Positions 1,884 to 45,618 of a DNA stretch of 64,000 nt are shown piece by piece. The DNA lies in contig CAJNOJ010000266.1 of NCBI GenBank assembly GCA_905250025.1, positions 62,001 to 126,000 of the forward strand. The letters are read 5' to 3'. Origin of the DNA: Adineta ricciae (lineage: Eukaryota; Rotifera; Eurotatoria; Adinetida; Adinetidae). The notes beneath the pieces are model-generated. The model made no database searches and had not been told where the DNA came from. It saw only the letters and a program-made list of their open reading frames with translations. Position 1 is the first letter of the stretch, and each line of letters opens with the position of its first letter. A program made the translations under genes and the position numbers.

Positions 1884-2845
1884 ATGGCCGGATTTTTCTT
1901 TAATGATATTACTAGGGTAGCTCTTCAATCTATATTGGGAGTACCGACACCTCTCATACGTAAGTTACCACATTTATATGATAAAACACTCGCTGTTTTA
2001 TCGTATATCATAATGTAAAAATGAAAACTTTTCTGTGCAACTTATTTTTAGCTGACTTGAGGGAAAGACGACGTGAGCCATCCGAGGATGATGACAGAAT
2101 TCGAAGAGTTTCACCGACTCAGCAGGAAATAAGAACAGTACGTCGAGATGTGGATCGAGAACGCCGACAAGCACAACGACTGGCCAGACGACTCGAACGA
2201 ATGGAACGAAAGCAAGAGAAAAGTCGAGAGAAAACACTAAAGAAACTGGCCCGCAATACCAAATCAAATAAATTACCAGGGAAGAATATTGGACTTTTTG
2301 GACTGACATCCTGTGGAAAATCGACCACGATCAATAGTCTCTTGGGAAAAGAGCTCGCGGAGACAGGCGTGGGCGAAACAACGAAAGAAATAACACCATA
2401 CAAAGGCATGGGATACACTCTTTGGGATGTACCCGGGCGCAACGATGAACTATCATATACAAATGAAAAATATATGTCGCACATCAAAGGACTAACACAT
2501 CGTCTTGTTATTATTGAGCATACAGTCAAGGAAAACCTGGAACTGCTGCGACTGTTGGATGACCTTAATCTGAGTTACGATATCGTTGTTAACAAACTGG
2601 ATCAAGTTCGTGAAAATCAACGAGAATCTTTTCAATCGAAAATTCGACGGGAAATTTCTTCACTTAAACTAGAAGAAGTGAAAAACGTCTACTTTCTAAG
2701 TGCAATGTATCCGGATATGTTTTCAGATTGGCTGACAATGGTCGATTCTTTAACTAATGAATATCGTTATCAAAGCGCTGATCCGGATTCGTCATCAGAT
2801 TCAAGCTCAAACTCGAGCTCGGACTCAAGTTCAGATTCAGATTGA
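1884..2845 (+). CDS. IRG/Era-like GTPase with acidic Ser/Asp tail (copy 1)
   Basis: Two exons (1884-1959, 2052-2845) give 289 aa. The start is ATG 1884 because exon 1 (MAGFFFN..., a hydrophobic N-terminal helix) splices in frame through GTAAGT/TTTTAG. Residues about 27-100 are a highly charged Arg/Glu/Lys coiled coil. The G domain has a P-loop GLTSCGKS (about 109-116), G3 DVPGRND (about 151-157) and G4 NKLD (about 206-209). The layout and the ETT..ITPYKG switch region resemble immunity-related (IRG) GTPases; a finer family call is not safe. The last ~23 residues are only Ser, Asp and Asn after ADP, a possible phosphorylation or acidic tail. It lies upstream of two related GTPases and is their more diverged paralogue. 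Confidence 0.85.
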
Positions 2846-3229: not shown

Positions 3230-4342
3230 TCAGAGACCCACTAAATGATTAACCATAGTCTTCCAATCTTCAAACATATCAGGAATTTCAGCACTAACAA
3301 AGTAGATCTTCTCTACTCCTTTGAGACCAAGCTCCTTCGTTTCACTTTCAATCTTGCTCTTCACCTTGCTTTGCTCGGCATCTTTCACCAGATCGAACTT
3401 ATTGAACACGATTGTGTATTTCAGTCCAAGTTCATCGAGAAGTCTCATCAAACTCGAGTTTTCTTTCACCGTCGACCCAATGAGAATGAGACGTCGTGTG
3501 AGACCTTTGAAGAAAGAGATGTACTCCATACTGAAGTAAGAGACTTCGTCATTCCGACCAGGAATATCCCAAAGGATGAATTTTGAACCTTTGTGTGGTG
3601 TAATTGTGGTTGTTGTTTCACCAGCACCTGTTTCGGCAACAGTTTTGCCGATCAAAGTGTTGAGCATAGTAGATTTACCAGTTGAGGTCAAACCGAATAG
3701 GCCGATATTGTTACCTTCCATAGGTAAGGGTTCTGTCAGCTTTGCTAGTTCTATAAGAGTTTTCAGCGCTTGTTGATCATGCTTGGCAAGATCTTCAAAC
3801 GATTTTATTCGTTTTCGTTTCAATTCTTCGTTAAGCTTTCTGTAACGTTCAATTAGTTGAGCGTGGCGGTCACGATACTGAGCCACTTCTACTCGTAGTG
3901 CTGCATTATCATCTGTATTGCGTTCGGTCTCGACCTCCATTTGGTCTGAACTTGGCTCTGCAGTAGATGAAGGATGATGAACATTTATTGAACTGGAAGC
4001 GTTTGAATTCTTCTCCGATTGTTGACTTAACGTTGCTCCTTGTCCATATTGTGGAGTCGTTGTTTCAGTCTTCGCTTGATTTTTCGACAATTCGCGACGT
4101 AGAACGGCATTTTCCTGTGTAAGATCATCGTTTCGGGACCTTAGATCATTTAACTGCGCATTTTCAGCCGATGCACCATGACGATCTAAATATAAACAAC
4201 AAGGGTAGAAAAGCTTCGACGATAAGAAAATATCTTTCTTTTACAAAAACTCCTATAACATACCTCGAAATGAGTTAATTGTGTTTAACAGTTCTTGAAC
4301 TATATGACTGCTCAAGCATGTGATGATATTCACAGCTATCAT
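3230..4342 (-). CDS. IRG-like GTPase, long 344-aa N-terminal form (copy 1, left position)
   Basis: Two exons on the minus strand: 4264-4342 (MIAVNIIT..., hydrophobic/amphipathic) and 3230-4185. Residues about 27-165 form an extended charged region with coiled-coil stretches (AENAQLNDLRSRN, RDRHAQLIERYRKLNEELKRKR) around a Ser/Thr/Gln-rich linker. The G domain follows: GLTSTGKST, WDIPGRND, NKFD. It ends with DMFEDWKTMVNHLVGL. The ATG was chosen because exon 1 joins in phase 1 and is preserved in copy 2. It is transcribed divergently from its near-twin at 5128-6035. The domain arm 3272-3720 is almost base-identical, in reverse orientation, to 5546-5994. In copy 2 this N-terminal module sits on the other side of the pair and on the other strand. 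Confidence 0.85.
3272..3720 (-). repeat. Left GTPase-domain arm of inverted repeat (copy 1)
   Basis: About 449 bp encoding EGNNIGLFGL through IPDMF, nearly identical in reverse complement to 5546-5994. Copy-1-specific bases (a CTCGAT codon pair, AGCAAG for the KSK residues, ACAATCGTG) occur in both copy-1 arms and in neither copy-2 arm. The first ~25 bp after GGTAAC instead follow the N-terminal module type. Confidence 0.9.
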
Positions 4343-4431
4343 ACTGAAATTTCAAAGTGCAATCCGATATACAATCGATAGACACGTAGTTTTGTTCCGC
4401 ATAGTCACCGATGGCTATATATATAAGGGTA

Positions 4432-4646
4432 ACTTTGTTGGAATATTCCACATTTTATAATATTTCTTCTTCTTCGTTGTGTATGCATCTTATTCGTTTG
4501 TGATGCAATCATCAATGAAAAGGAAAAATCCTCTTCTGGTATTGTTTCGAACAAGAGAACCGCAAAAATGTGGTAAATATGGATAAGAGAAAGATTATTC
4601 TCTGAAGATTTTTTCTTCGATCTCCAGTCTTGTGTAATTACAACGT
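4432..4646 (+). repeat. Inner inverted-repeat arm, left (copy 1)
   Basis: Pairs with 4818-5040. The spacer is asymmetric, which is what allows the orientation of the segment to be read; in copy 2 the spacer is reversed. Confidence 0.8.
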
Positions 4647-4817
4647 GGTAAAAAACGTGTAATACTCAGCACTGAAAATGCGATAAAAGATTTAGAAGCA
4701 TCTAAGACAAACAGCTATCCCTTCGACTTTAGGATATTTTAAACGCAAATAGCTTGTATACGATTCTCGTGTTACTCTGACGCATGAAAAGAAACAGAAC
4801 CGAACATGGATTTGTGC

Positions 4818-5040
4818 GACGTCGTAATTACACGAGACTCGAGATCGAGGAAAAAACCTTCAGATAATAATCTTTCTCTTACCCATATTTGCCATATTTT
4901 TGCGTCTCTCTTGTTCGAAACGATACCAGAAGAGGATTTTTCCTTGTCATTGATGATTGCATCACAAACGAATAGGATGCATGAGCAACGAAGAAAAAGA
5001 AATATTATAAAATGTGGAATATTCCAACAAAATTGCTTCT
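4818..5040 (-). repeat. Inner inverted-repeat arm, right (copy 1)
   Basis: Imperfect reverse complement of 4432-4646, with small indels and substitutions. It sits 90-300 bp upstream of the plus-strand GTPase start. Confidence 0.8.
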
Positions 5041-5127
5041 ATCTGAATACATATATATTCATATGTAGTCTTGATATCGAATAGATATTCTCGTTACAAA
5101 TCAATTTCAGTAGCGCTTGCGAAAAAC

Positions 5128-6035
5128 ATGGCTTATTGGGGATTAGCTATACCAGCGGCTATCAGAGTCGTTGAAACCTTGTTAAACGAAGTAGCAGGAA
5201 GAAAAAAGGGTGAGTAAAGAAACTTCTGTCCATGAAATCGCAATAAGATATTGAATGCATGATTTCTCTGAACCGTAGCACGTTTTTTTACAAATACTAT
5301 GTTGATCTTGTAGGTGAATCACCCGCTGTAGTGAATCCGTCCAATAGTTCAGCTGAAGCAGCCGAATTACGGCAAGAACTAGCTGAATATCGCGCACAAA
5401 ATGCTAAATTACTCTCACGATTCGACACACTTACCGCAGAGATGGAAAGAAAGAGGATCACGACGTTTGAACAACTTCAAAAACGGGATCAACAAGCTAA
5501 GAATGATCTCATCCACTTGGCTCAGGAGACAAAGCCAGCTAAGTTGGAAGGTAACAACATCGGTCTGTTCGGTTTGACCTCAACTGGTAAATCTACTATG
5601 CTCAACACTTTGATCGGCAAAACTGTTGCCGAAACAGGTGCTGGTGAAACAACAACCACAATTACACCACACAAAGGTTCAAAATTCATCCTTTGGGATA
5701 TTCCTGGTCGGAATGACGAAGTCTCTTACTTCAGTATGGAGTACATCTCTTTCTTCAAAGGTCTCACACGACGTCTCATTCTCATTGGGTCGACGGTGAA
5801 AGAAAACTCGAGTTTGATGAGACTTCTCGATGAACTTGGACTGAAATACACAATCGTGTTCAATAAGTTCGATCTGGTGAAAGATGCCGAGCAAAGCAAG
5901 GTAAAGAGCAAGATTGAAAGTGAAACGAAAGAGCTTGGTCTCAAAGGAGTAGAGAAGATCTACTTTGTTAGTGCTGAAATTCCTGATATGTTCAGTGATT
6001 GGGTCAATATGGTCGACGATTTGACAAATGCGTAA
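5128..6035 (+). CDS. IRG-like GTPase, short 267-aa N-terminal form (copy 1, right position)
   Basis: Exons 5128-5209 and 5314-6035. Exon 1 encodes MAYWGLAIPAAIRVVETLLN, a hydrophobic/amphipathic N-terminal helix that could bind membrane (inference). A short coiled coil follows (AEAAELRQELAEYRAQNAKL, then LTAEMERKR). The G domain has GLTSTGKST, WDIPGRND and NKFD, and the end is DMFSDWVNMVDDLTNA. The N-terminal module differs completely from the divergent neighbour although the G domains are almost identical. ATG 5128 is supported by in-frame splicing (phase 1 at Gly) and by the same exon at 35901-35982 on the other strand in copy 2. Confidence 0.85.
5546..5994 (+). repeat. Right GTPase-domain arm of inverted repeat (copy 1)
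   Basis: Reverse-complement partner of 3272-3720. With it, it brackets about 1.8 kb that is inverted between the two copies of the duplication. Confidence 0.9.
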
Positions 6036-12032: not shown

Positions 12033-13340
12033 TTATTTTTGCCACGGGAAGACTGACGATTTTGTGGAATTTGCTACTCTCCAGCAGACATTCGTTCGTT
12101 TGTTAATCTCTTTTATTGAATGTCTAGATTTGCTTAAAATTAATCGACGCCAATATGCATTACGTAATTTTTCCATACGGTACGTTTGTTTCATTAGATA
12201 AAACTTCGTCGTCGAAATTTTCTTCAACTTCTCATTCAAAAATTCTTCTGTAATCTCTTTATAATCATGAATAACAACAACAGGCAAGTTTTCATAAAGA
12301 ACATTAAGCGACGAATTCCAAACGATAGGGATCATGTCCAAATACAAGGCTTCCCACGTTCGATGACAATCAAGACCGTTGCCACGCGGTGATAACCAGA
12401 ATGAATGTTCACGATTTCGTCGATAGACATCAATAAGATTTGATGGATTAACACCAGAAGTTTTACTGAGACACATTATAAATGATTGATTTTTCTTCCT
12501 ATGTATGCACAAATCTTTCCAAATACGCCGGCGCAATCCTGTTTCATCGTTCTTCGACAAATAGTTGATGAGCAAAAGATTTTTTCTCAACATATTATCT
12601 TTGTTAAACAATATTCGATGAGTCATGTCCATTGGTTGAATGTACTTTATCGGCTCGTCTATATCGCCATATAGTTGTGGTAGTGTGTAATTACTCTGCT
12701 CTTTGTAGATCGTTTTCATTGCTTCGGCCATTTCATAACATTGAAGACCTATTGAACAAAAAAGCAAGTCGTTTTTTAACGATTTTTCATTGATGAACTT
12801 TATACCGATTGGAATATGAGTGAATTTCTTGCTCGTCGAACTAGCGATTGCGCCATTCTGACCAAACCAATGAATAATTTTCGAATCGGCTCGTTCGAGA
12901 TAGTCGAGAATCGGTGAAGATGAATCACCTTCACCTGTAATTAGAACAAATCTATGAAAAAGATGCGGATAAACATCTGTGAAGAATGTGCCAATCGCCC
13001 AAATGCTAACATAGATAATACTACCGTCAGGTAGACACGGAGCAATGTGTTTTCCATTTCTTGTTGTTTCGATTCGCTCGTGAGATCCATACGGCCAACC
13101 GTAAACCCAATCGGCCATATTACGAAAATTCAATTGACAAACAAAGTCAGGATAATGTCGAGTTAGATGGTGTGAATCAAAATGAAGATAGTCGTGCGAT
13201 AAACTCATCACATAAGGACATAATTGCGAACAATTGGATGATTCTTGTTCATTTAATATTTTCGAGCGATTAGTTGGAAGATGAAGAGTGGCAAACAGAA
13301 CGATAAGAAGAAGAACGATCGTATATCGTCGCACGAACAT
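12033..13340 (-). CDS. Exostosin/GT47-like type II membrane glycosyltransferase (copy 1)
   Basis: One uninterrupted exon of 435 aa, unlike its intron-rich neighbours. The N-terminus MFVRRYTIVLLLIVLFATLH is a short basic stretch plus one membrane helix, the signal-anchor layout of Golgi transferases. Toward the C-terminus is SFWLSPRGNGLDCHRTWEAL, then YLDMIPIVW, the nucleotide-sugar-binding type motif of exostosin-like (GT47) proteins. Several NxS/T sites are present. The lack of introns is compatible with retroposition or horizontal acquisition. Donor and acceptor sugars cannot be told. The copy-2 counterpart is frameshifted, so this is the only apparently intact copy in the window. Confidence 0.75.
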   Translation of the reverse strand: MFVRRYTIVLLLIVLFATLHLPTNRSKILNEQESSNCSQLCPYVMSLSHDYLHFDSHHLTRHYPDFVCQLNFRNMADWVYGWPYGSHERIETTRNGKHIAPCLPDGSIIYVSIWAIGTFFTDVYPHLFHRFVLITGEGDSSSPILDYLERADSKIIHWFGQNGAIASSTSKKFTHIPIGIKFINEKSLKNDLLFCSIGLQCYEMAEAMKTIYKEQSNYTLPQLYGDIDEPIKYIQPMDMTHRILFNKDNMLRKNLLLINYLSKNDETGLRRRIWKDLCIHRKKNQSFIMCLSKTSGVNPSNLIDVYRRNREHSFWLSPRGNGLDCHRTWEALYLDMIPIVWNSSLNVLYENLPVVVIHDYKEITEEFLNEKLKKISTTKFYLMKQTYRMEKLRNAYWRRLILSKSRHSIKEINKRTNVCWRVANSTKSSVFPWQK

Positions 13341-13722
13341 GTCAAAACGCTTGTCACCTTTATGAATGATCGCACCTTACAAGTTCATTAAAAAGATAAA
13401 TCAATTCTATACGGCCTGTCATGCATGAATAACGAAAGGAGTAAGCAGTAAGTGTATGTCTTCATTCAATCACATGTTTTTTTCTTGTTCTGTCGCTTAT
13501 CACGAAATAAACTGGTGTGAAAAACACCTGTTGAATATCCAATTTCTCTTGTTTCTTTTGTCATTTCGAATAGACATGATCGATTAGAAAAAGATTTTGT
13601 CTTAATCGTTGATGTACCGAAACTAAATCAGCATCAGGGAGAAATAATTTATTATCGAGTACAAAAAAAAACCATAAGAGAACGCTTTTCCTGAGATGTA
13701 CACAAAAAAACTTGCTTTCGAA
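13341..13722. other. Intergenic between two minus-strand single-exon genes
   Basis: 5' flank of the glycosyltransferase and 3' flank of the ADP-ribosyltransferase gene. A poly(A/T)-rich stretch with TTATTATCGAG near 13650. No gene seen. Confidence 0.4.
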
Positions 13723-16700
13723 CTAATTCTCCAGCTGTAAAATACTTTCGTTTATATATCGTTTGACTTGTTCGATTTTATGTGATGCTGCCGAAGAATC
13801 TTTTTTGTAGTATGTTAACGCTAATCGATAGTCAGCTATTGCTTGATTGAAATGACCCTTCTGAAAATGAATTTTCGCTGTCGCTGTATAAATATCTGCC
13901 AATGAAGAATCTCTCGATGTACTCGCTTCGATTGATTTACTGAAATAATATAGCGCTTGATTGTAATCACGTTTTTCATAATGAATATTTGCAATAATCA
14001 AATAAATCATATCGGCCGTCGTTGATGTTTTGTCATCAGTTCGTGAACGAAGTAATTTCAGAAAATGATCCAATGCTCGATCTTGGTAATAGGATTTGAA
14101 CGGTTTATTATGTAGAATTTCATAAAGACTATTCAGTGGTTTTCGTTCGGCTTCGGTTTGTGTTTGAATCAATTGCTTCCAACGCTCGGCGGTCGACACC
14201 GTACCCGTCGGAAAAGAGATATGCTTCGTCAAATAGATCTTTCCTATCAATGCGTAGATCTCATCGATTGGCAAATCTGAAGTTTCTATTCGGCAATGGA
14301 TTAGACGATTGAAGAACAGTAACGCTTCGTCATAGATTTCCATATCAAAATAAATATATGCCATGTTTTTGTAAATATCTGCCAACGAAAGATCCTTGAA
14401 CGTTTTCTCTTCGGACTCATTCGCTAATAATTTATAATAAAAAAGCAACGCTTGGTTATAGTTTCGTTGAGAGAGATTTATATTCGCAATAACATTGTAA
14501 CTTTCCGACAGTAAGGAATCACCAGTGGATAATGTTTTCAATTGTTTCTTGAGTATTTGATGGAAATACTCGATAGACTGATCGCGATGTCGCTGATCGA
14601 AATATTTGCCTTCGATCAGTTTTATTGATGCTACTGATAACGATCGTAGTGTAGGTTTTGGAAAATAATCGCAAGCTAAATAGATCGATTTGATGTATGA
14701 ATAAGCACGTTCGATGGCGGTTTTCTCATTCGACTTGGCTTGTGCGTGAGAATCTAATTGAAGATTGAAGTAAAGCAGCGCGTGTGAGAAGTTCTTCTGT
14801 TTGAAATAAATCACGGCGATGAGGTGGTAGATGTCAGCTAACGAAGGGTCTTGAACGAGAGTTCTGTCTAAGAGTTTGTGCAATAATTTTTGAAGATATT
14901 TCATGGAATGAGTGAGATTATGTTGTTCGAAATAGATTACACAGATGAATTTGTAAATTTTCATGATTAGTGTGTCGTTTGATGGTGGTTGAACTTTCAT
15001 TTCGAGATGAAGTGCTTTCCGAAAAAATTTTAACGCTTCGTCGAAACTTTGGATTTCGAGGTAGACATGTGCGAGTATTTGATAAGAATCACTTAGCGAA
15101 CTATTTTTTGTGATGAGCTCTTCGAAATAGTCGATCAGACGGTTGAAATGACGTTGTTCTATCGAACTCTCCGTCAGAGACGCGATTCGAAGAGATCTCG
15201 GTAGGAGATTTATCGTTGTTACGAAGCCTAATTTCGACTTCTTCGTCGAAGCAAATCGATCATAATCACAAAAAACTTTCCCGATACTTGCTAATGTCGC
15301 ATTCAATTCTTTGACGTCTATTTTCAATTGACAATCAAGTAGATGATTATAATGGATCAATGCTTGAGGATAATTTAATTTGTCCAGATAGATATTCGCA
15401 GTATATTTATAAAGATCAGCCAATCGACGATAATTTCTCGGAACTTTTTCTAGTTGACTACTGAGCAATTTCTTGAGATAAATCAATGCTTGATCGTAAT
15501 TATGTATTTCAACGTTGATATTGCTGATCACTTCGTAAATCTCGTATAGTTTCGGATCAGTTGACGATTTGGTCTTCAATTCATTGTTCATTACATTTTC
15601 AAAGGAGACTAATGCTTCTTCCATATTTTGCTTTTCTAATAGGATATTTCCGAGAATTTTATGTAAATGAGTGAATTGTGCATCGCCCGTTTGGAGTTTG
15701 ACCGATTCGATCTTTAACAACTGTTGAAAATAACGCAAAGCTTGATCTAAATGTCGTTTTTCGAAATGAACACTTTCAATCATACGGAATGAGTCGGACA
15801 GGTCAGCTCGATTTGATAAGGAATCTTGCATTTGTGTAATCAACGAGTTTCCAAAATAAAGTAGAGAATTTTCAAAAAAATTGTTTTGAGCATAAATTTT
15901 GCCGATGATTTCATATGTTTTGTCGATTGCTTCTTCATCCACAGGTTTCACTCGTGCTTGAGCATCGACTAGTCGATTGAAATAAATCAATGCCAATGGG
16001 TAGTCATCGAGTTTTAAATGAAGATTCGCGATGGTTCGGTAGAGCTCGATCAATGATGGATCATCTGGAAGTTTCCGTTCGAGATCGTTTTTCAGCGATT
16101 TATGAAAGTAGTCCAAGGCATCTTCGATGTTGTCTTTTTTCAAATATGTATTCGCAATTGTGTTGTAGGTTTCTGTGATCGCTGGATTACCGATGTTTAA
16201 TCGTTCCAGTTGATTTTTCAGAAGTTTATCCAAATAATCCAGTGCTTGATCGTAATTGTTTTGTGCTAAATAAGTTTTGCCAAGAATCGAATACGTTTCA
16301 CCGACAGCCGGATGTTTCCATAGTAATGTTTTCAATTGATTTTCGAGTAATTTGTTGAAGTAGTGCAATGCTTGATCATAGTCACCTTTCTTTTGGTAAA
16401 GAAAACCAAAGTTTTTGAAACTCTCCGCGAAATCCGAATGATTGTTTGGTAAAGATTTCGCTTGTAGATCGTATGCTTTTTGTATACATTCGAATGCTTT
16501 GCTTTCCTGGTCAAAATCGGAGTACATCTGTCCCATTGCGATGTAAGTATAGCCTAAATCTGGATGATCAGCGAACAAAGCTTTTTGTTGCGTCTGGATT
16601 GCTTTTTGGAAGATATTTTTCGCTTTTTCGAATTGTTTCAATGCCGTGAAGATCTTTCCTAATTCGATGTATGTATTCGCAATGAACGATGGTCGTGTGG

Positions 16701-17985
16701 TATTCGTCTGATGCTGTAAACACTTGTACTGATATTCCAAAGCGATTTTATAATTTCCCATGGTGGAATGCAGTTTGGCTAGACCGGCGTAAGTCATCGA
16801 ATGATTGTTTTTCTCGAACTTCAACGCTTGTTCGTAATGATGAAAGGCGAGAGGATAATTTTCTTGATGGGAATGAATTAAACCTAAATCATTGTGGCAT
16901 TGTCCGACAAGAAAGTGCTCTTTGGTTTTTGGATCGTTCGATAAATAATTCATTGCTAGATCTAAATGCCTTCGAGCATCATCATAATCTCCTTTCTTTT
17001 CGTTAACTTGTGCGAGACCATGATAGCAAGTAGCCAAATCGAAATCTTCTTTGATCAGTTTCTCTTTTAACAACATTTTATAATGAGCTTCAGCTTCATC
17101 GAATTTTTGCATTTGCATCATGTAAAGACCGAGACTTACCAGCATATTCTTCCCTTCTAACTCTCGTTCCAGCTCGACTTCAAATCGGGTTAAGTCACCG
17201 TCTTCATCGCCGCATAATGTCAAATTCGCTCGCCAAATTTTCAATTCTTTATCAAACCAAATTTGATCAATACGAAAAACACAACCGAACATGAACAGCA
17301 CTTCGTCTTCCTTAGCAAACGCACTGAGATTTTTCACATCAGCATACGGCCGACTCGATTGTCGTAAATCAAGTTTAATTTCTAATAGAATTGTCGTTAA
17401 CGTCTCTGATTTTGTTCCGCTCATGGCGAACTCTAATGCTTGCTTACGGTTCGTACTTGTCGACAGAAATGAATTCATCGATAATAATTGACCTTTAGCA
17501 TACTTGATTCGATTCACTTCGTCAACACTGATCATCTGGCCACGATACACTGTCAAGGACATGGTTGGACTTGTAATTAAGAAGGTTATTTGTTCATAGG
17601 CTAATTGATTGTATAGGTCACGAATGAATTGTGTAAACGCAATCAGATCTCCAATACTTTGTGTCCGTAAGGCTTTGTTTAACAAGCGATATATACATGA
17701 TTCACGTGTGTACCAATAGATGGCTTTCTTTGGATCGTAGCTTGTATCGAACTCTTTCATAATCTGTTGATCTGTTGCATCGGTAGGATCAAAATGCTCG
17801 ATAAGTGTGGCTTTTTTCGAAAGATCGGTCAAACCTTCCGATAGTAAACGTTTGAGAATCACTTGATAGAGCAGAAACTCTCCATTCAATTCATTATGTT
17901 GACTTTGCATATCTTGTAAGCAAAAAACATTCGCCATCGAGCCGGCATTTCCGCTCGCTTTGCTAACGGATTTTCTTCGCAACAT
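13723..17985 (-). CDS. NAD:arginine ADP-ribosyltransferase with long TPR array (copy 1)
   Basis: Single exon of 1420 aa. Residues about 40-250 form an ADP-ribosyltransferase domain of the R-S-E class: Arg in LTVYRGQ (about 148), NSFLSTSTNR (about 171-180), and an E-x-E motif in AKEDEVLFMFG (Glu about 226 and 228) with the second Glu expected to be catalytic. From about residue 285 to the end, tetratricopeptide-type repeats of ~34-42 aa occur (for example KFDEAEAHYKMLL, NYPLAFHHYEQALKF, NYDQALDYLDKLL, HFNQAIADYRLALTYYKKD). Some are spaced like kinesin-light-chain repeats. It probably modifies Arg on proteins recruited by the TPR array; targets are unknown. Such ART-TPR proteins are a recurrent family in rotifers. 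The catalytic residues look intact. Confidence 0.88.
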   Translation of the reverse strand: MLRRKSVSKASGNAGSMANVFCLQDMQSQHNELNGEFLLYQVILKRLLSEGLTDLSKKATLIEHFDPTDATDQQIMKEFDTSYDPKKAIYWYTRESCIYRLLNKALRTQSIGDLIAFTQFIRDLYNQLAYEQITFLITSPTMSLTVYRGQMISVDEVNRIKYAKGQLLSMNSFLSTSTNRKQALEFAMSGTKSETLTTILLEIKLDLRQSSRPYADVKNLSAFAKEDEVLFMFGCVFRIDQIWFDKELKIWRANLTLCGDEDGDLTRFEVELERELEGKNMLVSLGLYMMQMQKFDEAEAHYKMLLKEKLIKEDFDLATCYHGLAQVNEKKGDYDDARRHLDLAMNYLSNDPKTKEHFLVGQCHNDLGLIHSHQENYPLAFHHYEQALKFEKNNHSMTYAGLAKLHSTMGNYKIALEYQYKCLQHQTNTTRPSFIANTYIELGKIFTALKQFEKAKNIFQKAIQTQQKALFADHPDLGYTYIAMGQMYSDFDQESKAFECIQKAYDLQAKSLPNNHSDFAESFKNFGFLYQKKGDYDQALHYFNKLLENQLKTLLWKHPAVGETYSILGKTYLAQNNYDQALDYLDKLLKNQLERLNIGNPAITETYNTIANTYLKKDNIEDALDYFHKSLKNDLERKLPDDPSLIELYRTIANLHLKLDDYPLALIYFNRLVDAQARVKPVDEEAIDKTYEIIGKIYAQNNFFENSLLYFGNSLITQMQDSLSNRADLSDSFRMIESVHFEKRHLDQALRYFQQLLKIESVKLQTGDAQFTHLHKILGNILLEKQNMEEALVSFENVMNNELKTKSSTDPKLYEIYEVISNINVEIHNYDQALIYLKKLLSSQLEKVPRNYRRLADLYKYTANIYLDKLNYPQALIHYNHLLDCQLKIDVKELNATLASIGKVFCDYDRFASTKKSKLGFVTTINLLPRSLRIASLTESSIEQRHFNRLIDYFEELITKNSSLSDSYQILAHVYLEIQSFDEALKFFRKALHLEMKVQPPSNDTLIMKIYKFICVIYFEQHNLTHSMKYLQKLLHKLLDRTLVQDPSLADIYHLIAVIYFKQKNFSHALLYFNLQLDSHAQAKSNEKTAIERAYSYIKSIYLACDYFPKPTLRSLSVASIKLIEGKYFDQRHRDQSIEYFHQILKKQLKTLSTGDSLLSESYNVIANINLSQRNYNQALLFYYKLLANESEEKTFKDLSLADIYKNMAYIYFDMEIYDEALLFFNRLIHCRIETSDLPIDEIYALIGKIYLTKHISFPTGTVSTAERWKQLIQTQTEAERKPLNSLYEILHNKPFKSYYQDRALDHFLKLLRSRTDDKTSTTADMIYLIIANIHYEKRDYNQALYYFSKSIEASTSRDSSLADIYTATAKIHFQKGHFNQAIADYRLALTYYKKDSSAASHKIEQVKRYINESILQLEN

Positions 17986-19216
17986 GTTACGCCGTGATAT
18001 CCAGAAGAAGAAAAAAATTTCATAGAAGCACTCTTCACGAGTATGGTGAGACGAAAAATCAGACCTGCGAGCGGTAATGTTTATATTATTGTATTTGCAC
18101 CGATGATTACATGAATATATTACCTATAGATATTATCTATTCAAATCATCGACCTTGCGTTTGCACATGTTCTCTTATTTTTCAATCGTAATTGATCAGC
18201 TATGCACTGTACGTCTTATGATCGACGATTAATCCATTTGATTCGCAAAGATGGTATACAATGTGGCTAATCGAAAATATTTGTCGTTTCTCTTAAGTAG
18301 CTTTTATCAACAACAACAAAACCCGATGGATACGATTTTGGACAATAATAGTAATGCGTTCCTTCTCATAACCGATTTCATCGTCGATTTCGGTAATTAA
18401 ACAGACAAATTTGAATGATTGGATACTCAATGCAGCTTTCAACATGTTATTATTATGGTCAAATGTGATGAGTGAAGGTAAAGAATCATCGATATATCTG
18501 CATATACAAACTTTTACCGGCGTTTTACATGTCATAGTCGAGCTTTCAATAAGATTATTCACCAATGTGAAAAGCCAAGCGAATACATATTTCGGTTAGA
18601 ATGATCGATTTTATTTATATGAAATCAAAAAGATATTCTACTCATTTTATTGATAATGTAAGCCAGTTTAAGTGAAGTTCTTTTGCTTCTCCCCCTACTG
18701 GTACGTCCTACATACAATTTAGTTTCTCTACACCACTTGATTATTGACCGTTCCATTTGTAGAACTATCTATTATATAAAAATGCTTTACTTCAAGACAC
18801 CCAGTTTAATTACCTTTTGATAATGTCAATCAACGACAGATGTATATATGCATATTTTCCCTATGTCTATTTTTCATTGCTCCAGGTAAAACAGAATGAT
18901 GGACGGAAAATTTCAACGGAGTTCGCTGGCACCTTTTGTCAAACTGAATTAGTAACGAAAGTATATAGGTACAGTAATATTCAATTTTCTATTCCAACTC
19001 ATGTGGTAAACTAATGTAGACAGAATGGTAATTTCACATTTATTGGCGAAAACAAATGGAAAAATCAAGTGAAATAAAATAAATTTCCTTCGATAATTGG
19101 CGAAAGGATATGCTCTATTGTACATCGACCTATAAAAGCTAGTAAATGTAGACGACAAGAAATAACAATTTCAATCACATATAAGCAAGCGCGTATTGAT
19201 TGTTGATCTGATTCAA
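17986..19216. other. Long intergenic region, ART-TPR to Trp-rich gene
   Basis: About 1.2 kb with no supported gene. Short open frames on both strands differ between copies. It is the 5' flank of the minus-strand ART gene and of the plus-strand Trp-rich gene. CTATAAAAGC at about 19131-19140, about 80 bp before the Trp-rich start, is a good TATA-box candidate and is kept in copy 2. Confidence 0.5.
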
Positions 19217-20010: not shown

Positions 20011-20340
20011 AGGTGAAGTATTCAAAGACCGTACTATGTACGAGATCGTAACGCATTTACCAATGGAAACTGCTCGAGTTCTCCAGCGCACGAATCAACA
20101 AATGCCTTGTACGGAAGATGAACATGGCAGTCCTATATACAATTCAGATATTCTCGATCAAATGTACGATAATTATCTTGCAAATATCTTCATTCCCATT
20201 CTGAAATGAACGAGTTTGATTTAAACGCTACATCTACATTTGTATGAACGATAGGGTGGTCAAGTGGAGATTTTCTCAAGAAACTATTACGACATGTTAG
20301 CACCGCCAGTATGTCGATTGATTTCTTCGAAATCATCAAG
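20011..20340 (+). pseudogene. Decayed glycosidase-like fragment (copy 1, shortened)
   Basis: After a splice-acceptor-like ACAG comes an open stretch of ~65 codons (EVFKDRTMYEIVTHLPMETA...HGSPIYNSDILDQMYD), then a stop. A short piece encodes SSGDFLKKLLRHVSTAS-type sequence. Copy 2 holds the same pieces plus ~0.8 kb more, including FLKKLLQHASTAGTSIDF and an ECDPAVDAIYG motif that resemble GH39 beta-xylosidase-type proteins. In copy 1 the intervening sequence is deleted. The family assignment is tentative; that the region is broken is clear. Confidence 0.45.
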
Positions 20341-28220: not shown

Positions 28221-29088
28221 CAAAGTATAAAATACTACATTGATCTGTTTCTCAAACATTTTACACACGCATATTTGTAAATTTTATCCATTCTTTTTTC
28301 TAATCACGGATATAATAAACACTACTATGTCAAACATAGTAAAAGCATCTTTGAGAATTTCCTGTTACGATAATCAAACTGGGTTTGCAACTTTGTTCTC
28401 AAATAGTGAGAGAGCGAAGTTTCTCAACGAGTTGCATGAAATTATAGATATTATGAATTCTGACATAAGAAATAAGACGGATGAATTTCGTAACAAATAC
28501 AGTACTGCATAAAACGTGTACCTTTACATCGTCAACCAAAATCTAGTACAATTATTTGTTGATGTGTCATAAGAACAAATACATCCCATTACCTTTCACA
28601 GCAACTAAAAACAGCAGATATTTATATATTCTCGAAAATGAGAGTATGCTCGAAATAGAAACGGCAACGTTATGCATATACGTCCATGAAATGGAATAGA
28701 TTTTCTAGACATGGCGTTATAAGGAGAAGTGAAATTCAAGTCACTTGCTAAGTACCATCGATTTCAATGTTAACGACATCATGTATGTGTATTCAAAAGT
28801 AGTACACAAAAAAAGATTTTTACCTGTAGTAAGTTCAGTGAAATGCCAATTGTATTTTCATACTTTCGTGATATTTGATGATCACCTTGTTTTTTTTGCT
28901 CCTTCTTCCGCTACACTAGACCTCGTTAATCTCCTATCATAGCCAACAGAAAAGTGATAAAATCGACCATTCTATCTTTTTCTCTCCTTTGCATGCTTGA
29001 TTGCATCTTATCACTCGTTTTTTCATGTACAATACTTTTCGAACATGTTAGTTTCGAACAGAAGGTGAAAGACACTCACACGGTAAAG
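28221..29088. other. Intergenic with a small unsupported ORF
   Basis: Contains an open frame 28327-28512 (MSNIVKASLRISC...) that is interrupted by a stop in copy 2, so it is probably not a gene or is a relic. A further reading frame leads into the His-rich gene but shows nothing recognisable. Confidence 0.4.
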
Positions 29089-29989: not shown

Positions 29990-30712
29990 TTACGGGAGCT
30001 TCCGAGTAAGTTTTATTGTCTTGAGCTGCCTCTCACAGTCTGATTGTTTTTATTTTATCAGAGGTGATGCAAGAATCAACATTCTATGGGTTCTATTTCT
30101 AATTCTTATTCTTCTTTCTACGCATATGTGCTGCCATCGAAGTTTCGCTCGGCATCGTGCTTTCTCGTAATAATTTGGCTTCTACTACAACAACAACTAC
30201 AACAGGTATTTGATCTTAGTCCTCCAATTAGGAACACATTCTTCAGAGAAATACATATTACCTGACTATCGTTTTGTTTTGTCTCTAGTCACAATACACA
30301 AGTAGCTTCGTACGCAAATTCAATGCCAATTGGAATTGCTACTACTGATTTTAATCACGACAGTAAACTAGATCTTGTTATTTCCAGTTCAGGCTCAAAC
30401 AACATAGCTGTGTTCTTTGGTGTTAGCCATGGAGATTTTACACTATCCGCAACTTATTCAATCAGTGGCACTTCTTATCCTCGTAAAATTGCGGTTGCTG
30501 ATGTTAACAAAGATAACCAATTAGATTTGATCGTTGTCAGTTACTTGGGTAGTAATGTTCGTGTTCTACTACTTGGATCTAGCTCGGAAGGTTTTCCTGC
30601 ACAGACAATATTTACTGACGGTGCGAGTCCACATGAATTGGACGTTGGCAACATTGACAACGATACTTGTCCTGATATTGTCGTTGCCAACAGTGGTAGT
30701 AATAATATGTAA
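29990..30712 (+). pseudogene. FG-GAP/VCBS repeat membrane protein, broken and truncated (copy 1)
   Basis: Remains of an exon with GTAAGT donor (about 30005), a hydrophobic helix (WVLFLILILLS), a Thr-rich stretch (TTTTTT) before another donor (30206), then FG-GAP repeats: IATTDFNHDSKLDLVISSSG, KIAVADVNKDNQLDLIVVSY, DVGNIDNDTCPDIVVANSGS. The Asp-rich DxNxDxxxD loops are typical calcium-binding FG-GAP/VCBS units of extracellular adhesin-like proteins. The expected start codon is missing, helix and Thr stretch are in different frames, and the repeat array stops at 30708-30712 where the duplication junction cuts in. Confidence 0.75.
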
Positions 30713-30890
30713 ATCTGTGCAGATTTGCTTGAAGGAAACGCGTTTCAACTTTGTTGTTGTTTTATTGATTAAAACAAAACAAACGGAAAACGAAACGCTA
30801 ACGAACGAACGAGAAGAAAAAAAACGTTCTGTCTAGGTTGGTTGTGAAACACACACACCACGAGACAGAGAGAACAACTCGTGGGAAAAN
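30709..30890. other. Junction filler with an ambiguous base
   Basis: About 180 bp with no match to either copy. Low complexity: AAACAAAACAAACGG, AACGAACGAACGAG, ACACACACACCACGAGACAG. The base at 30890 is N, the only ambiguity I noticed in the window. It may mark a polymorphism, a collapsed repeat or an assembly join. Confidence 0.7.
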
Positions 30891-31706
30891 AATCTCGCAA
30901 ACAAACGACATCAGATATTGTCAATGGTGGAAAAAGCGTTGCTAAGGTATTTTAGATCGAACAATTCGTCTCTACAGATTAAAATTCATATATTCTCCAT
31001 AGGATGTTGTACATGGCGTGAAAGATGTTGTTAAAAAACCAATAACTGGTGCTAAAGAAGAAGGTGCTGCAGGTCTAATGAAAGGATTAGGTAAAGGTTT
31101 TCTCGGCGTCGTCGCGCGGCCAACAAGTAGTGTTGCTAATCTGACTAGTACATCGTGTGATGTTCTCAAACGGTAAGATGACTTTCACGGAAACAAAAAT
31201 AATCTGATTAATCGATGAAACATCACAGGACTGTAACACACGGCGATATTATTCATCGTACTCGACGCTCACGACATATCGGAACTGACTTTCTTATCCG
31301 ACCTTCGATCGCTGATGAAACAAAAGGTCGTTTTATTTTCAATGTAAGTCTTAAGAAGCAACAAACTAGTTTTTATACTTCCGTTTTTGTCAGAGACTTG
31401 ATAATAAGAAATACATTCAGTCAGATGACTATATTGCTCACATAAATTGTCTCGAAAATAATGTACTTGGTTGGTTTATGGTCACATCGAAGTGAGTTAT
31501 ATTTCAATCGATTGACTCGATGGAAACTTTGTGATTTTAGACACATTATGTTCATCAAAGATACGTCACAGAGGCCTGATGTCTACGAAATTCAATGGCA
31601 CTTTCAATACAAAGAATTAAACGAAGCGCCGAAGATGAATTTTCGGTTGAATCAAATCGAAATCAATTTAAAAGTAACTCGAGCACCCTTCTATCAAGAA
31701 GAGTAA
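30891..31706 (+). CDS. 3' end of a VPS13-like lipid-transfer protein (5' truncated)
   Basis: Exons: up to 30946, 31003-31172, 31229-31343, 31394-31491, 31541-31706, in a consistent frame. The peptide GLMKGLGKGFLGVVARPTSS followed by VTHGDIIHRTRRSRHIGTDF matches the conserved C-terminal segment of VPS13, the bridge-like lipid-transfer protein of membrane contact sites. Later exons (AHINCLENNVLGWFMVTSK, YEIQWHFQYKELNEAPK) fit its PH-like C-terminus. The 5' end stops at the N, so only roughly 200 codons are present. No second copy is inside the window; by the duplication logic its partner should lie just left of position 1. Confidence 0.7.
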
Positions 31707-32288
31707 TTGTAATCATTTAGGACGCTAAATTACGTCGAAGAATTAACAGACACCGAGAACATGAAAAGATTATTTCGTTTGAAAATCTTGGTGATGCTCG
31801 AGTATGTCCCTTTTGATCTATTCCGTTATTCTATGAACTTATTGATCTGTTCTTTTAGTATATTGTTGATCGAATTACAGAAATAATGCACGTAATTGAA
31901 TTATAATTGACTGATTGTTGGAAATGTTCACATTTTTTTATAAATTATTCTAGCAAAATAAAAGCTCGCGTGTTTGTGTACAGGAAAAAAAAACAGGCTA
32001 AAAATCATGTTTTGAGAACGGATTGATGGATATTTATTATTTATAAAATAAAAATCAATTTTTCATTGCTCATGCTCTTAGCAACCGGAATGTTTGTTGT
32101 AGTGCTTTCCGTTTCTCTCTCCGATGCGAGAAGTGCTGCTACTTCGACTTAATTTTCTCCGAGAGAAGTGAAATAGAGTTTTTTCACTTCTATTTGTGTG
32201 AGTTAGAGCGAGAAGGAAAAACATTTTCCGCACACTTATCGATTAGATACCCAGTAATCGGTTACTAAATAATACATTTAGATCTTTG
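31707..32288. other. VPS13 3' flank and start of copy 2
   Basis: The interval 31722-31800 has some coding-like codons but no usable intron links it to VPS13. From 31839 the sequence repeats the window start. Confidence 0.45.
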
Positions 32289-33317
32289 ATGAAGCCTAGA
32301 ACATTATTTCCACTTCCATTTTCACTACCACCGTTCAGTCGTCTGAGAATTATCAGAAGATTGAATGCGATTTATCCTGAAAGACCTACCACGAATGAAA
32401 ATTCGGAGGTATGTGATTATATGTCAAATTATTAATATAATACATCTTCTCGTCTTCGATAGATACCTACGCTAGGATCGTCCGATGAAAAGTAATTCAA
32501 TTGTCAAGAGATGCGTGCTCTATTAATAAGTCCTTTTTCTTAGTGACCAAGCGCTTGAAAGTATCGATCACATCGGCATTCTCGGACTTGTCAGTGCGCT
32601 CTCAGCTGCTGCTATTCTTCTCGGCTTTTTTAGCTTAATCTTTGGCCTTCAACCGGGTGAGACCATTTTGGATGTGAAGATCTAAACAATTTCCGTTGTT
32701 TTTTCTTAGAAGTACCAACTGGTACCATCCTTCTCTATAGTGGGACATCAGCAGCTTTACTAGGTCAAAACGATCGATGGTTATTCTGTAATGGTTCAGA
32801 AGTATCGCGCCAAATCTATCGAAACTTATTCAGTGTTATTGGTACTATATACGGAAGTGGTGATGGCGTTAACACATTCAATCTACCCGATTTACGGGCT
32901 CGATTTCCGTTGGGTAGCACATTAAGCAGTGATGTGACCATGCTCTCTGGCGGATCTTCAACACACACAATTACGGTTGCTGAGATGCCTTCACATAGTC
33001 ATGATCAAGGATCCTTAGTCACCTCGTACAGCGGTAGTCATACACATAATTACACGGATCCCGGACATGATCATGGTGGATCAACAGGTACTCAACCATT
33101 AGGTGCTGGCACTGCTGCTATGGTCAATTCCGGTTTACCAGGTAATGGCGCTGGTACACATAGTCATTCGATTTCCAGCGGTAAGACAAGTATTACAATT
33201 AACACAGTTGGCGATCACAACCATACGATTAGTGGATCGACAGGCACGACAGGTTCGAGTCAAGCTATGAGCTTGATGCCACCGTATCAGACAGTTCATT
33301 ACATTATTCGAACATGA
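32289..33317 (+). CDS. Phage-type tail-collar membrane protein (copy 2)
   Basis: Exons 32289-32408, 32463-32491, 32544-32656, 32710-33317, each exactly the length of its copy-1 partner; 289 aa. The start reads MKPRTLFPLPFSLPPF. The collar core WLFCNGSEVSRQ and FNLPDLRARFPLG is unchanged. Differences concentrate in the His/Gly-rich region (GAGTAAMVNSGLPGNG against GAGSSAMIGSGFPGNG). The intact frame in both copies argues that the transferred domain is still under selection. Confidence 0.85.
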
Positions 33318-33733: not shown

Positions 33734-34693
33734 ATGGCCGGATTTTTCTTTAATAGTATTGCTAGGGCAGCTCTTCAACCCATGTTGCGAGTACCGATGC
33801 CTTTTATACGTAAGTTACCACATTTATATGATAAAATACTCACCGTTTTATCGTATATCATAATGTAAAAATGAAAACTTTTCTGTGCAACTTTTTTAGC
33901 TGACTTGAGGGAAGGACAACGTGAGGCATCCGAGGATGATGACAGAATTCGGAGAGTTTCACCGACTCAACAGGAAATAAGAACAGTACGTCGAGATGTG
34001 GATCGAGAACGCCGACAAGCACAACGACTGATCAGACGACTCGAACGAATGGAACGAAAGCAAGGGAAAAGTCGAGAGAAAACACTTAAGAAACTGGCCC
34101 GCAAAACCAAATCAAATAAATTACCAGGGAAGAATATTGGACTTTTTGGACTGACATCCTGTGGAAAATCGACCACGATCAACAGTCTTTTGGGAAAAGA
34201 ACTCGCTGAGACAGGCGTGGGCGAAACAACAAAAGAAATAACACCATACGAAGGCACGGGATACACTCTTTGGGACGTACCCGGGCGTAACGATGAACTA
34301 TCATATACAAATGAAAAATATATGTCGCACATTAAAGGATTAACACATCGTCTTGTTATTATTGAGCATACAGTCAAGGAAAACTTGGAATTGCTACGAC
34401 TATTGGATGACCTTAACCTGAGTTACGATATCGTTGTTAACAAACTGGATCAAGTTCGTGAAAATCAACGAGAATGTTTTCAATCGAAAATTCGACGGGA
34501 AATTTCTTCACTTGAACTAGAAGAAGTGAAAAACGTCTACTTTCTAAGTGCAATGTATCCGGATATGTTTTCAGATTGGCTGACAATGGTCGATTCTTTA
34601 ACTAATGAACATCATTATCAAAGCTCTGATCTGGATTCGTCATCAGATTCAAGCTCAAACTCGAGCTCAGACTCAAGTTCAGATTCAGATTGA
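33734..34693 (+). CDS. IRG/Era-like GTPase with Ser/Asp tail (copy 2)
   Basis: Exons 33734-33809 and 33900-34693; 289 aa. P-loop GLTSCGKS, DVPGRND and NKLD are all kept. The N-terminal helix has drifted more (NSIARAALQPMLRVPMPFI) than the G domain, and the coiled coil has several charge changes. The Ser/Asp tail is identical in pattern after LDSSSDSSS. Confidence 0.85.
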
Positions 34694-35076: not shown

Positions 35077-35982
35077 TCAGAGACTCACTAAATGATTAAC
35101 CATAGTCTTCCAATCTTCAAACATATCAGGAATTTCAGCACTAACAAAGTAGATCTTCTCTACTCCTTTCACACCAAGTTCTTTCGTTTCACTTTCAATC
35201 TTGTTCTTCACCTTGCTTTGCTCTGCATCTTTCACCAGATCGAACTTATTGAACACAATTGTGTATTTCAGTCCAAGTTCATCCAGAAGTCTCATCAAAC
35301 TCGAGTTTTCTTTCACCGTCGACCCAATGAGAATGAGACGTCGGGTGAGACCTTTGAAGAAAGAGATGTACTCCATACTGAAGTAAGAGACTTCGTCATT
35401 TCGACCAGGAATATCCCAAAGAATGAATTTTGAACCTTTGTGTGGTGTAATTGTGGTTGTTGTTTCGCCGGCACCTGTTTCGGCAACAGTTTTGCCGATC
35501 AAAGTGTTGAGCATAGTAGATTTGCCAGTTGAGGTCAAACCGAACAGACCGATGTTGTTACCTTCCAACTTAGCTGGCTTTGTCTCCTGAGCCAAGTGGA
35601 TGAGATCATTCTTCGCTTGTTGATCCCGTTTTTGAAGTTGTTCAAACGTCGTGATCCTCTTTCTTTCCATCTCTGCGGTAAGTGTGTCGAATCGTGAGAG
35701 TAATTTAGCATTTTGTGCGCGATATTCAGCTAGTTCTTGTCGTAATTCGGCTGCTTCAGCTGAACTATTTGATGGATTCACTACAGCGGGTGATTCACCT
35801 ACAAGATCAACATAGTATTTGTAAAAAAGTGCTACGGTTCAGAGAAATCATGCATTCAATATCTTATTGCGATTTCATGGATAGAAGTTTCTTTACTCAC
35901 CCTTTTTTTTTCCTGCTACTTCGTTTAACAAGGTTTCAACGACCCTGATAGCCGCTGGTATAGCTAATCCCCAATAAGCCAT
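35077..35982 (-). CDS. IRG-like GTPase, short 267-aa N-terminal form (copy 2, left position, inverted)
   Basis: Minus-strand exons 35901-35982 and 35077-35798; 267 aa. The N-terminus (MAYWGLAIPAAIRVVETLLN, AEAAELRQELAEYRAQNAKL) is that of the plus-strand right-hand gene of copy 1. The C-terminus DMFEDWKTMVNHLVSL is that of copy 1's left-hand minus-strand gene. The gene is therefore a recombinant across the shared G domain. P-loop GLTSTGKST, WDIPGRND and NKFD are intact. Confidence 0.87.
35119..35566 (-). repeat. Left GTPase-domain arm of inverted repeat (copy 2)
   Basis: Reverse-complement partner of 37393-37840. It shares copy-2-specific bases with that arm (CTGGATGAA, AAGAACAAG, ACAATTGTG) rather than with its positional counterpart in copy 1. 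Confidence 0.9.
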
Positions 35983-36769
35983 TTTTTTGCAAGCGTTACT
36001 GAAATTGATTTGTAACAAGAATATCTATTCGATATTAAGACTACATATGTATATATATAGATAGATAGATAGAAGCTATTTTGTTGGAATATTCCACATT
36101 TTATAATATTTCTTTTTCTCTGTTGCGCATGTATCCTAATCATTTGCGATGCAATCATCAATAACAAGGAAAAATCCTCTTGTGGTATCGTTTCGTACAA
36201 GAGAAACCTAAAAATATGGTAAATATGGGTAAGAGAAAGATTGTTCTCTGAAGGTTTTTTCCTCGATCTCGAGTCTCGTGTAATTACGACATCGTAAAAA
36301 TCCATGTTCGGTGCTGTTTCTTTTCATGCGTCGGAGTAATACAAGAGTCGTATACAAGCTATTTGCGTTCAAAATATCCTAAAGCCGAAGGGATAGCTGT
36401 TTGTCTTAGATGCTTCTAAATCTTTTGTCGCATTTTCGGTGCTGACTATTACACGTTTTTTACCACGTTGTAATTACACAAGACTGGAAATCAGCGAAAA
36501 AACACCCAGGGAAGAATCCTTCTCTCCCCAATGTTTACCATATTTTTGCGTTTCTCTTGTACGAAACGATATCAGAAGAGGATTTTTCCTTGTTATTGAT
36601 GATTGTATCACAAACGAATAGGATGCATACGCAACAGAGAAAAAGAAATGTTATAAAATGTGGAATATTCCAACAAAGTTATCCTTATATATATAGCCAT
36701 TAGTGACCATATGCGAAAAAAACTACGTGTCTATCGATTGTATATTGGATTGTACTTTGAAATTTCAAT
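35983..36769. promoter_or_regulatory. Bidirectional intergenic region, inverted relative to copy 1
   Basis: Reads as the reverse complement of 4343-5127, including the asymmetric spacer (copy 1 ~4655-4800, here ~36315-36450) and the sequences next to both start codons. A GATA microsatellite lies at 36058-36073. The inner palindrome arms are still present (around 36085-36300 and 36465-36680). Confidence 0.8.
36058..36073. repeat. (GATA)n microsatellite
   Basis: Three to four ATAG units between TATATATA and AAGC; the matching copy-1 sequence (near 5040-5060) has no such expansion. Confidence 0.7.
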
Positions 36770-37882
36770 ATGATAGCTATGAATATCATCACATACTTGA
36801 GTAGTCATATAGTTCAAGAACTGTTAAACACAATTAACTCATTTCGAGGTATGTTATAGGAGTTTTTGTAAAAGAAAGATATTTTCTTATCGTTGAAGCT
36901 TTTCTACCCTTGTTGTTTACATTTAGATCGTCATGGTGCATCGGCTGAAAATGCGCAGTTAAATGATCTAAGATCCCGAAACCACGATCTTACACAGGAA
37001 AATGCCGTTCTACGTCGCGAATTGTCGAAAAATCAAGCGAAGACTGAAACAACGACTCCAAAATATGGGCAAGGAGCAACGTTAAGTCAAGAATCGGAGA
37101 AGAATTCAAACGCTTCCAGTTCAATAAATGCTCATCATCCTTCACCTACTGCAGAGCCAAGTTCAGACCAAATAGAGGTCGAGACTGAACGCAACACAGA
37201 TGATAATGCAGCACTACGAGCAGAAGTGGCTCAGTATCGTGACCGCCACGCTCAACTGATTGAACGCTACAGAAATCTTAACGAAGAATTGAAACGAAAA
37301 CGAATAAAATCGTTTGAAGATCTTGTCAAGCATGATCAACAAGCGCTGAAAACTCTTATAGAACTAGCAAAGCTGACAGAAGCCTTACCTATGGAAGGTA
37401 ACAATATCGGCCTATTCGGTTTAACCTCAACTGGCAAATCTACTATGCTCAACACTTTGATCGGCAAAGACGTTGCCGAAACAGGTGCTGGTGAAACAAC
37501 AACCACAATTACACCATATAAAGGTGCAGAATTCATCCTTTGGGATATTCCTGGTCGAAATGACGAAGTCTCTTACTTCAGTATGGAGTACATCTCTTTC
37601 TTCAAAGGTCTCACCCGACGTCTCATTCTCATTGGGTCGACGGTGAAAGAAAACTCGAGTTTGATGAGACTTCTGGATGAACTTGGACTGAAATACACAA
37701 TTGTGTTCAATAAGTTCGATCTGGTGAAAGATGCAGAGCAAAGCAAGGTGAAGAACAAGATTGAAAGTGAAACGAAAGAACTTGGTCTGAAAGGAGTAGA
37801 GAAGATCTACTTTGTTAGTGCTGAAATTCCTGATATGTTCAATGACTGGATCAATATGGTCGACGATCTGACAAACGCATAA
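36770..37882 (+). CDS. IRG-like GTPase, long 344-aa N-terminal form (copy 2, right position, inverted)
   Basis: Plus-strand exons 36770-36848 and 36927-37882; 344 aa. The N-terminus (MIAMNIITYLSSHIVQELLN, then the Ser/Thr linker and RYRNLNEELKRKR coiled coil) is that of copy 1's minus-strand gene, while the tail DMFNDWINMVDDLTNA is that of copy 1's plus-strand gene. One stretch near the P-loop differs from all other copies (GKDVAETG, PYKGAEF against GKTVAETG, PHKGSKF), marking a limit of the homogenised tract. Confidence 0.87.
37393..37840 (+). repeat. Right GTPase-domain arm of inverted repeat (copy 2)
   Basis: Partner of 35119-35566. The 5' end of the arm (AACAATATCGGCCTATTCGG) follows the long-form module, the 3' two-thirds follow the copy-2 consensus. 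Confidence 0.9.
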
Positions 37883-45236: not shown

Positions 45237-45618
45237 GTCAAAACGCTTGTCACCTTTATGAATGATCGCACCTTACAGGTTGATTAAAAAGATAACTCAA
45301 TTCTATACGGTCTGTCATGCATGAACGACGAAAGAAGTAAGAGGTAAGTGTATGTCTTCATTCAATTACATGCTTTTTTCATGTTCTGTCGCTCATCACG
45401 AAACGGACTGATGTGAAAAACATCTGTTGAATGTCCAATCTTTCCTGTTTCTTTTTTCATTTCGCATAGACATAATCGATTAGAAAAAGATTTTGTGTTA
45501 ATCGTTGATGTACCAAAACTAAATCAGCATTAGAGAGAAATAATTTATTAACGACTATAAAAAAAAACATAAGAGAACGCTTTTCCTGAGATTTACAAAA
45601 AAAAAACTTGCTTTCGAA
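45237..45618. other. Intergenic, glycosyltransferase to ART-TPR (copy 2)
   Basis: Counterpart of 13341-13722; nothing recognised. Confidence 0.4.

Follow-up and report, generated by a model that had tools for sequence, protein, structure and literature searches.

Opposite orientations of a head-to-head pair of IRG-like GTPase genes in two homologous blocks of an Adineta ricciae contig

Among the systems compared here, the closest precedent for the locus is VIM4–VIM2 of Arabidopsis thaliana, which likewise consists of head-to-head paralogues with an inversion. Inversions between accessions are attributed there to nonallelic homologous recombination (NAHR); the breakpoints perhaps lie within the genes and are not precisely definable according to the authors, and the flanking boundaries are conserved (PMC13213937). 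The system differs from ours in being a plant locus, in having one accession where a deletion is also present and related genes are silenced by small RNAs, and in that orientation differs between accessions, whereas here it differs between two copies of one record. Human inversions between inverted repeats are also assigned to NAHR, and are described as polymorphic and often recurrent, with signs of recurrence in 11 of the 16 that were analysable (PMC3961182). Because such inversions recur often in humans, recurrence here would not be strange, although the scales differ: the human repeats span 1.6–24 kb and the segments between them 5.1–226 kb (PMC3961182), compared with arms of 0.45 kb and a segment of 2.7 kb in our case. 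A third point of comparison is the flip/flop mating-type switching of Ogataea (Hansenula) polymorpha and other yeasts, which involves a segment between inverted repeats (PMC4238957, PMC6692504). The likeness lies in a eukaryotic segment that is flanked by inverted repeats and found in two orientations. The yeast flip sets the active versus the repressed MAT locus and is induced by nutrient limitation, whereas here the 5′ regions accompany their genes. Among the literature matches listed for bdelloid inversions, palindromes and assemblies, A. vaga chromosomes, recurrent inversions, yeast flip/flop switching, rotifer immunity-related GTPases and exon swapping by inversion, the locus is not named in titles or the starts of abstracts.

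The sequence analysed (the window) is a 64-kb stretch of A. ricciae contig CAJNOJ010000266.1. In a BLASTN self-comparison, nearly the whole window resolved into two homologous blocks of ~31 kb that are arranged head to tail:

2 to 30708, plus strand: homologous block 1 (first haplotype or copy)
30709 to 31839: junction of 1.1 kb without detected homology elsewhere in the window, with the sole N at 30890
31840 to 63448, plus strand: homologous block 2 (second haplotype or copy)

Direct pieces are 87–94% identical between the blocks and the inverted piece is 94.8% identical. Direct matches account for 93.1% of the first 30,710 bases, and only base 1 and positions 3721–5544, 20172–20310, 28502–28651 and 30709–30710 of that stretch fall outside them. 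The sole minus-strand match between the blocks (E up to 1e-5) joins 3273–5992 to 37839–35120 and, given this direct cover, it is not a product of chance. Identity of the direct matches outside the flipped segment ranges from 88.8 to 97.0% in 1-kb bins, so the GTPase segment is about as similar between the blocks as its surroundings, and is the only part that is flipped. The GC content of the window is 36.8%; a value of 35.6% is published for A. ricciae (PMC5916493). A search at the bacterial-code setting found no tRNA genes in the window, Tandem Repeats Finder returned five rows, every one a short array, and the composition profile showed nothing notable.

Synonymous divergence bears on what the two blocks are. 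Pooled over 11 gene pieces, Ks between them is 0.132 and Ka is 0.034; the pieces were picked from open frames, stop to stop or nearly, with some intron or upstream codons included. N-terminal serpin pieces, a receptor-like frame, an FG-GAP frame and other small frames were outside the pool, as were two within-copy rows for the arms described below, because these compare arms rather than copies and include tail codons. Mean Ks values reported for A. ricciae are 0.135 for homologs and 1.267 for ohnologs (Nowell et al. 2018, PMC5916493), and the mean for A. vaga homologs is 0.05 (PMC5916493); the value in the window is thus near that of the published A. ricciae homologs and far below that of the ohnologs. 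The lone N lies in the junction, and neither copy of the gene pair contains one. The homology of block 1 ends at 30708, just short of where an open FG-GAP frame (30266–30712) closes. Because of the lone N in the junction and the allele-like Ks, haplotypes joined in scaffolding are favoured over a tandem array, and the two copies most probably represent the homologous haplotypes of a single animal, placed head to tail. Two points count against this assignment: a true tandem duplication that held an assembly gap would likewise show one N, and the direct pieces, at 87–94% identity, diverge more than the median of 4.55% between A. ricciae gene copies, although the pieces include noncoding DNA.

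A genuine ~32-kb tandem duplication within a single chromosome, with the GTPase pair of one unit later inverted, overlaps with the other explanations considered here, and we regard it as unlikely. It takes the head-to-tail blocks of the record at face value, and two scaffolds with tandem homologous blocks, the two cases of linked homologous blocks in A. ricciae, have been described without being demonstrated to be errors (PMC5916493). Against it stand the single N in the junction, the 181 bp without homology ahead of that N and the allele-like Ks in the tested genes. The sequence-only reading that preceded this analysis had spoken of two copies; copies on one chromosome are less likely than haplotypes joined by a scaffolder, given the lone N, the Ks and the near-full homology. 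The 181 bases themselves (30709–30889) have no detected match in the window, and are perhaps the end of a mobile element at a contig edge.

Several other differences and genes were observed in the blocks. An exostosin-type glycosyltransferase match, weak and under the Pfam cut-off, is found at 12033–13376 (minus strand) and 43927–45272 (minus strand); the gene is open in block 1, and the block 2 copy is split by a frame shift within a homopolymer run, which could mean that one haplotype has truly lost the gene, or could come from faulty sequencing. An 852-bp stretch in block 2 (52075–52926) corresponds to 139 bp in block 1 (20172–20310). Open frames of ~1465 codons at 13723–18123 and 45619–50013 (Ka/Ks 0.20 between blocks) have an ADP-ribosyltransferase-like match and long TPR arrays (Pfam, block 1 copy). 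Positions 824–1480 and 32661–33317 encode a protein with a phage tail-collar domain (Pfam, block 1 copy; Ka/Ks 0.17 between blocks), which is a candidate for horizontal origin in what appears to be an animal genome.

The flipped segment contains most of a head-to-head pair of related GTPase genes, and a third related gene lies beyond it:

2021 to 2845, plus strand: third related GTPase gene, not part of the flipped segment; its counterpart in copy 2 is 33905–34693, orientation unchanged
3230 to 4342, minus strand: copy 1 left gene, long form, 344 amino acids; exon 1 4264–4342, exon 2 3230–4185
5128 to 6035, plus strand: copy 1 right gene, short form, 267 amino acids; exons 5128–5209 and 5314–6035
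35077 to 35982, minus strand: copy 2 left gene, short form, 267 amino acids; exons 35901–35982 and 35077–35798
36770 to 37882, plus strand: copy 2 right gene, long form, 344 amino acids; exons 36770–36848 and 36927–37882
4343 to 5127: intergenic region between the start codons of copy 1, 785 bp; lies reversed at 35983–36769 in copy 2
4416 to 4654: inner inverted repeat, long-form side, 239 nt; 88% complementary to 4811–5049
4655 to 4810: asymmetric 156-nt spacer; copy 2 at 36301–36456, inverted
4811 to 5049: inner inverted repeat, short-form side; partner of 4416–4654

All four gene models are open, their modelled splice sites are GT and AG, and Ka/Ks between the copies is 0.30 for the long form and 0.23 for the short form. 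As the sequence-only reading had noticed, the two forms trade sides: the spliced models run 344 then 267 residues from left to right in copy 1, and 267 then 344 in copy 2. The same reading had the C-terminal tails staying in place, and the last codons do track side, not form, with FEDWKTMVNHLV(G/S)L on the left and DW(V/I)NMVDDLTNA on the right in both copies. The inner inverted repeat has a core of 213 bp (4434–4646) at 91.5% identity by BLAST. The folding energy of 4416–5049 as single-stranded DNA is −210 kcal/mol, whereas 20 shuffles average −58, a difference that is expected for a repeat of such length.

For the three GTPase types scanned, the best Pfam match is MMR_HSR1. The IIGP family, with a cut-off of 24 bits, scores 24.1 bits with the short form, 31.6 with the third gene and 23.0 with the long form, and is matched by all six proteins at E up to 0.001. 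A profile built from six sequences and compared with the PDB ranks IRG structures first (4.5e-11 to T-cell-specific GTPase 2); Foldseek placed EngB first and IRGs next. The structure model (mean pLDDT 72.7, pTM 0.61) comprises a G domain preceded by a long N-terminal helix, and the modelled protein ends 22 residues past the last strand, after one helix, which leaves no room for the C-terminal helical domain of IRGs. That domain is a defining feature of IRGs. Taken together, the Pfam, profile and model results suggest IRG-like G domains without the helical C-terminal domain: the proteins resemble immunity-related GTPases (IRG, Pfam IIGP) in the G domain, which is a weak match to the IRG type, and are predicted to differ in lacking the helical C terminus and having the long N-terminal helix instead. 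A search for relatives of these GTPases gave no match in viral contigs, prokaryote genomes, phages or plasmids.

Each copy of the gene pair is an imperfect palindrome whose outer arms lie in the G-domain exons. In copy 1, 3273–3720 and 5545–5992 form inverted arms of 448 bp that are 98.9% identical; the arms of copy 2 (35120–35567 and 37392–37839) are 96.9% identical. Direct homology between the copies ends at 3720/35567 and restarts at 5545/37392, and the long copy-to-copy match between the arms is inverted. Two short direct matches inside the segment (221 and 214 columns, 87%) have their source in the inner inverted repeat. Across the 1.8-kb interior (3721–5544 against 35568–37391), 1713 of 1827 columns are identical in the inverted alignment and 923 of 2058 in the direct one. 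The spacer behaves in the same way (146/156 inverted, 54/179 columns direct), in agreement with the earlier statement that the intergenic region is reverse-complemented together with its asymmetric spacer. At the variable sites of the inner repeat, 23 track module, 4 copy and 0 side, counts that are expected if modules and intergenic DNA rotated jointly; a further 52 sites are private to one arm and 8 are mixed. The copies, otherwise collinear, thus appear to differ by an inversion whose breakpoints are held by inverted repeats.

The same data bear on whether the N-terminal modules could instead have been traded by two independent gene-conversion or replacement events, with no inversion at all. 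The arms do bear signs of gene conversion (see below); the 156-nt spacer (146/156) and the stretch of 4390–5058 around it (89%) are inverted along with the modules. We reject independent conversion of the modules because the spacer is inverted too, and consider it hardly credible. Recombination between the inverted arms that moves the 5′ regions and N-terminal modules to the other tail, as first proposed, fits a sequence in which spacer and intergenic DNA are also inverted.

To locate the exchange, the four arms were aligned without gaps over 561 columns and their variable sites were sorted by module, copy and side. Columns 1–63 contain 25 module-linked sites and 1 private to one arm, and columns 489–561 contain 32 side-linked (tail-linked) sites, 9 private to one arm and 3 mixed. 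In the middle 425 columns there are 9 copy-linked sites, 0 module-linked and 0 side-linked, as well as 14 private ones (8 in the right arm of copy 2, 4 in the left arm of copy 2, 1 in each arm of copy 1). The breakpoints would therefore lie between the last module-linked and the first tail-linked site:

3273 to 3697, minus strand: breakpoint interval, left arm of copy 1, from last module-linked to first tail-linked site
5568 to 5992, plus strand: breakpoint interval, right arm of copy 1, from site sorting across arms
35120 to 35544, minus strand: breakpoint interval, left arm of copy 2, from site sorting across arms
37415 to 37839, plus strand: breakpoint interval, right arm of copy 2, from site sorting across arms

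The expectation that the breakpoints fall within the inverted arms is thereby refined to 425 of the 448 bp, and the crossover can be placed no more finely because no site there tracks tail or module.

All nine informative two-two sites in this interval pair the arms by copy, for which the chance is 5e-5 under equal thirds. This grouping points to gene conversion between the G-domain arms within each copy. With the third GTPase gene as outgroup, four of the nine copy-linked sites could be polarised, two of them derived in copy 1 and two in copy 2; mutations that postdate the separation of the copies thus appear to have spread to both arms of their own copy, with conversion at work in each of the two. 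Recent origin does not by itself account for how alike the arms are, because immediately upstream the coding sequences of the long and short form match at 125 of 220 positions. An assembler that reused one repeat sequence could mimic part of the within-copy likeness; blind collapse of the arms is disfavoured by the nine copy-specific sites that were kept. The eight private sites of the right arm of copy 2 are clustered at 37423–37529 (columns 72–178), in the G domain; the third GTPase agrees with that arm at four of them, with the other three arms at two and with neither at two. This tract is either an older state retained in copy 2 or the result of conversion from the third GTPase gene.

The similarity of the arms also makes an error of orientation a live rival, because left and right arms share exact stretches of up to 335 bp in copy 1 and up to 249 bp in copy 2. 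Under this explanation the haplotypes are alike in life, and one interior was reversed by the assembler or scaffolder across indistinguishable arms, so that the printed orientation depends on linkage across a perfect repeat of 335 or 249 bp. If the 2018 A. ricciae assembly is the source, its methods list a short-insert library of 250 bp with 100-base reads, and such pairs could hardly connect module to tail; if the matter was left unresolved, copies would be expected to disagree half the time. The authors also allow that scaffolding errors may be behind some collinearity breaks (PMC5916493). On the other side, the same methods list mate pairs (3 kb, 51 bases) as well as PacBio sequencing of a 10-kb library on 3 SMRT cells; mate pairs and long reads could in principle resolve an interior of 1.8 kb, and the gene-pair copies contain no N. 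We consider such an error possible, though the less expected outcome.

Our preferred explanation, which we hold to be probable though by no means secure, is an allelic inversion polymorphism that arose by recombination of inverted paralogous exons, with the two haplotypes joined in scaffolding and a small effect on coding. Head-to-head paralogous IRG-like GTPase genes would have formed a large imperfect palindrome, whose two G-domain exons would be homogenised in each copy by noncrossover gene conversion, as the site pattern suggests. In one lineage, the 1.8–2.7 kb between these inverted exons would have been flipped by a crossover involving both of them, or by break repair that led to an equal result, as the orientations indicate. 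The intergenic region and both N-terminal modules would have moved as a single block, and each flank would have kept its own final 13 residues and 3′ end. Because the whole intergenic region is inside the inverted segment, the promoters of both genes presumably travel with them, and both genes would probably stay expressed in either state. Beyond the near-identical arms, the flip re-pairs the 13-residue tail and the 3′ end alone.

The terms ‘cassette’ and ‘switch’, used in the sequence-only reading, find no support: one state is seen per copy, and the intergenic region travels with its genes. An active invertible switch would alter the tail and 3′ end of each N-terminal form by repeated flips in germ line or soma. 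Both orientations are present in the record, the conversion implies contact between the arms in each copy, and the reading frames fit in either orientation. Set against these points, a single state is seen per copy, the intergenic region accompanies its genes in either state so that 13 residues and the 3′ end alone are swapped, and conversion suffices to explain the homogenisation. No recombinase family was found among the 10 frames scanned with Pfam, though a recombinase could be encoded elsewhere. Such a switch seems to us very improbable, and scarcely less so is repeated flipping in clonal lineages, for example by break repair after desiccation, under which one asexual line would hold both orientations and tail combinations. 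An inversion between inverted repeats, of a known kind and with no programmed switch, is the best reading.

If the opposite orientations are an assembly error, the locus would illustrate how a short inverted pair of paralogues can give a diploid assembly the false appearance of an allelic inversion. Either way, the proteins are little altered: their G domains are nearly identical, and what is exchanged next to them amounts to 13 residues and the 3′ end. If the inversion is real, the locus would be a marked inverted repeat in which conversion (the nine copy-linked sites) and crossover (the orientation) may be counted in the same arms, in a presumably asexual animal. Were repeated flipping true, the locus would serve as a natural read-out of exchange within chromosomes in an animal that lacks ordinary sex.
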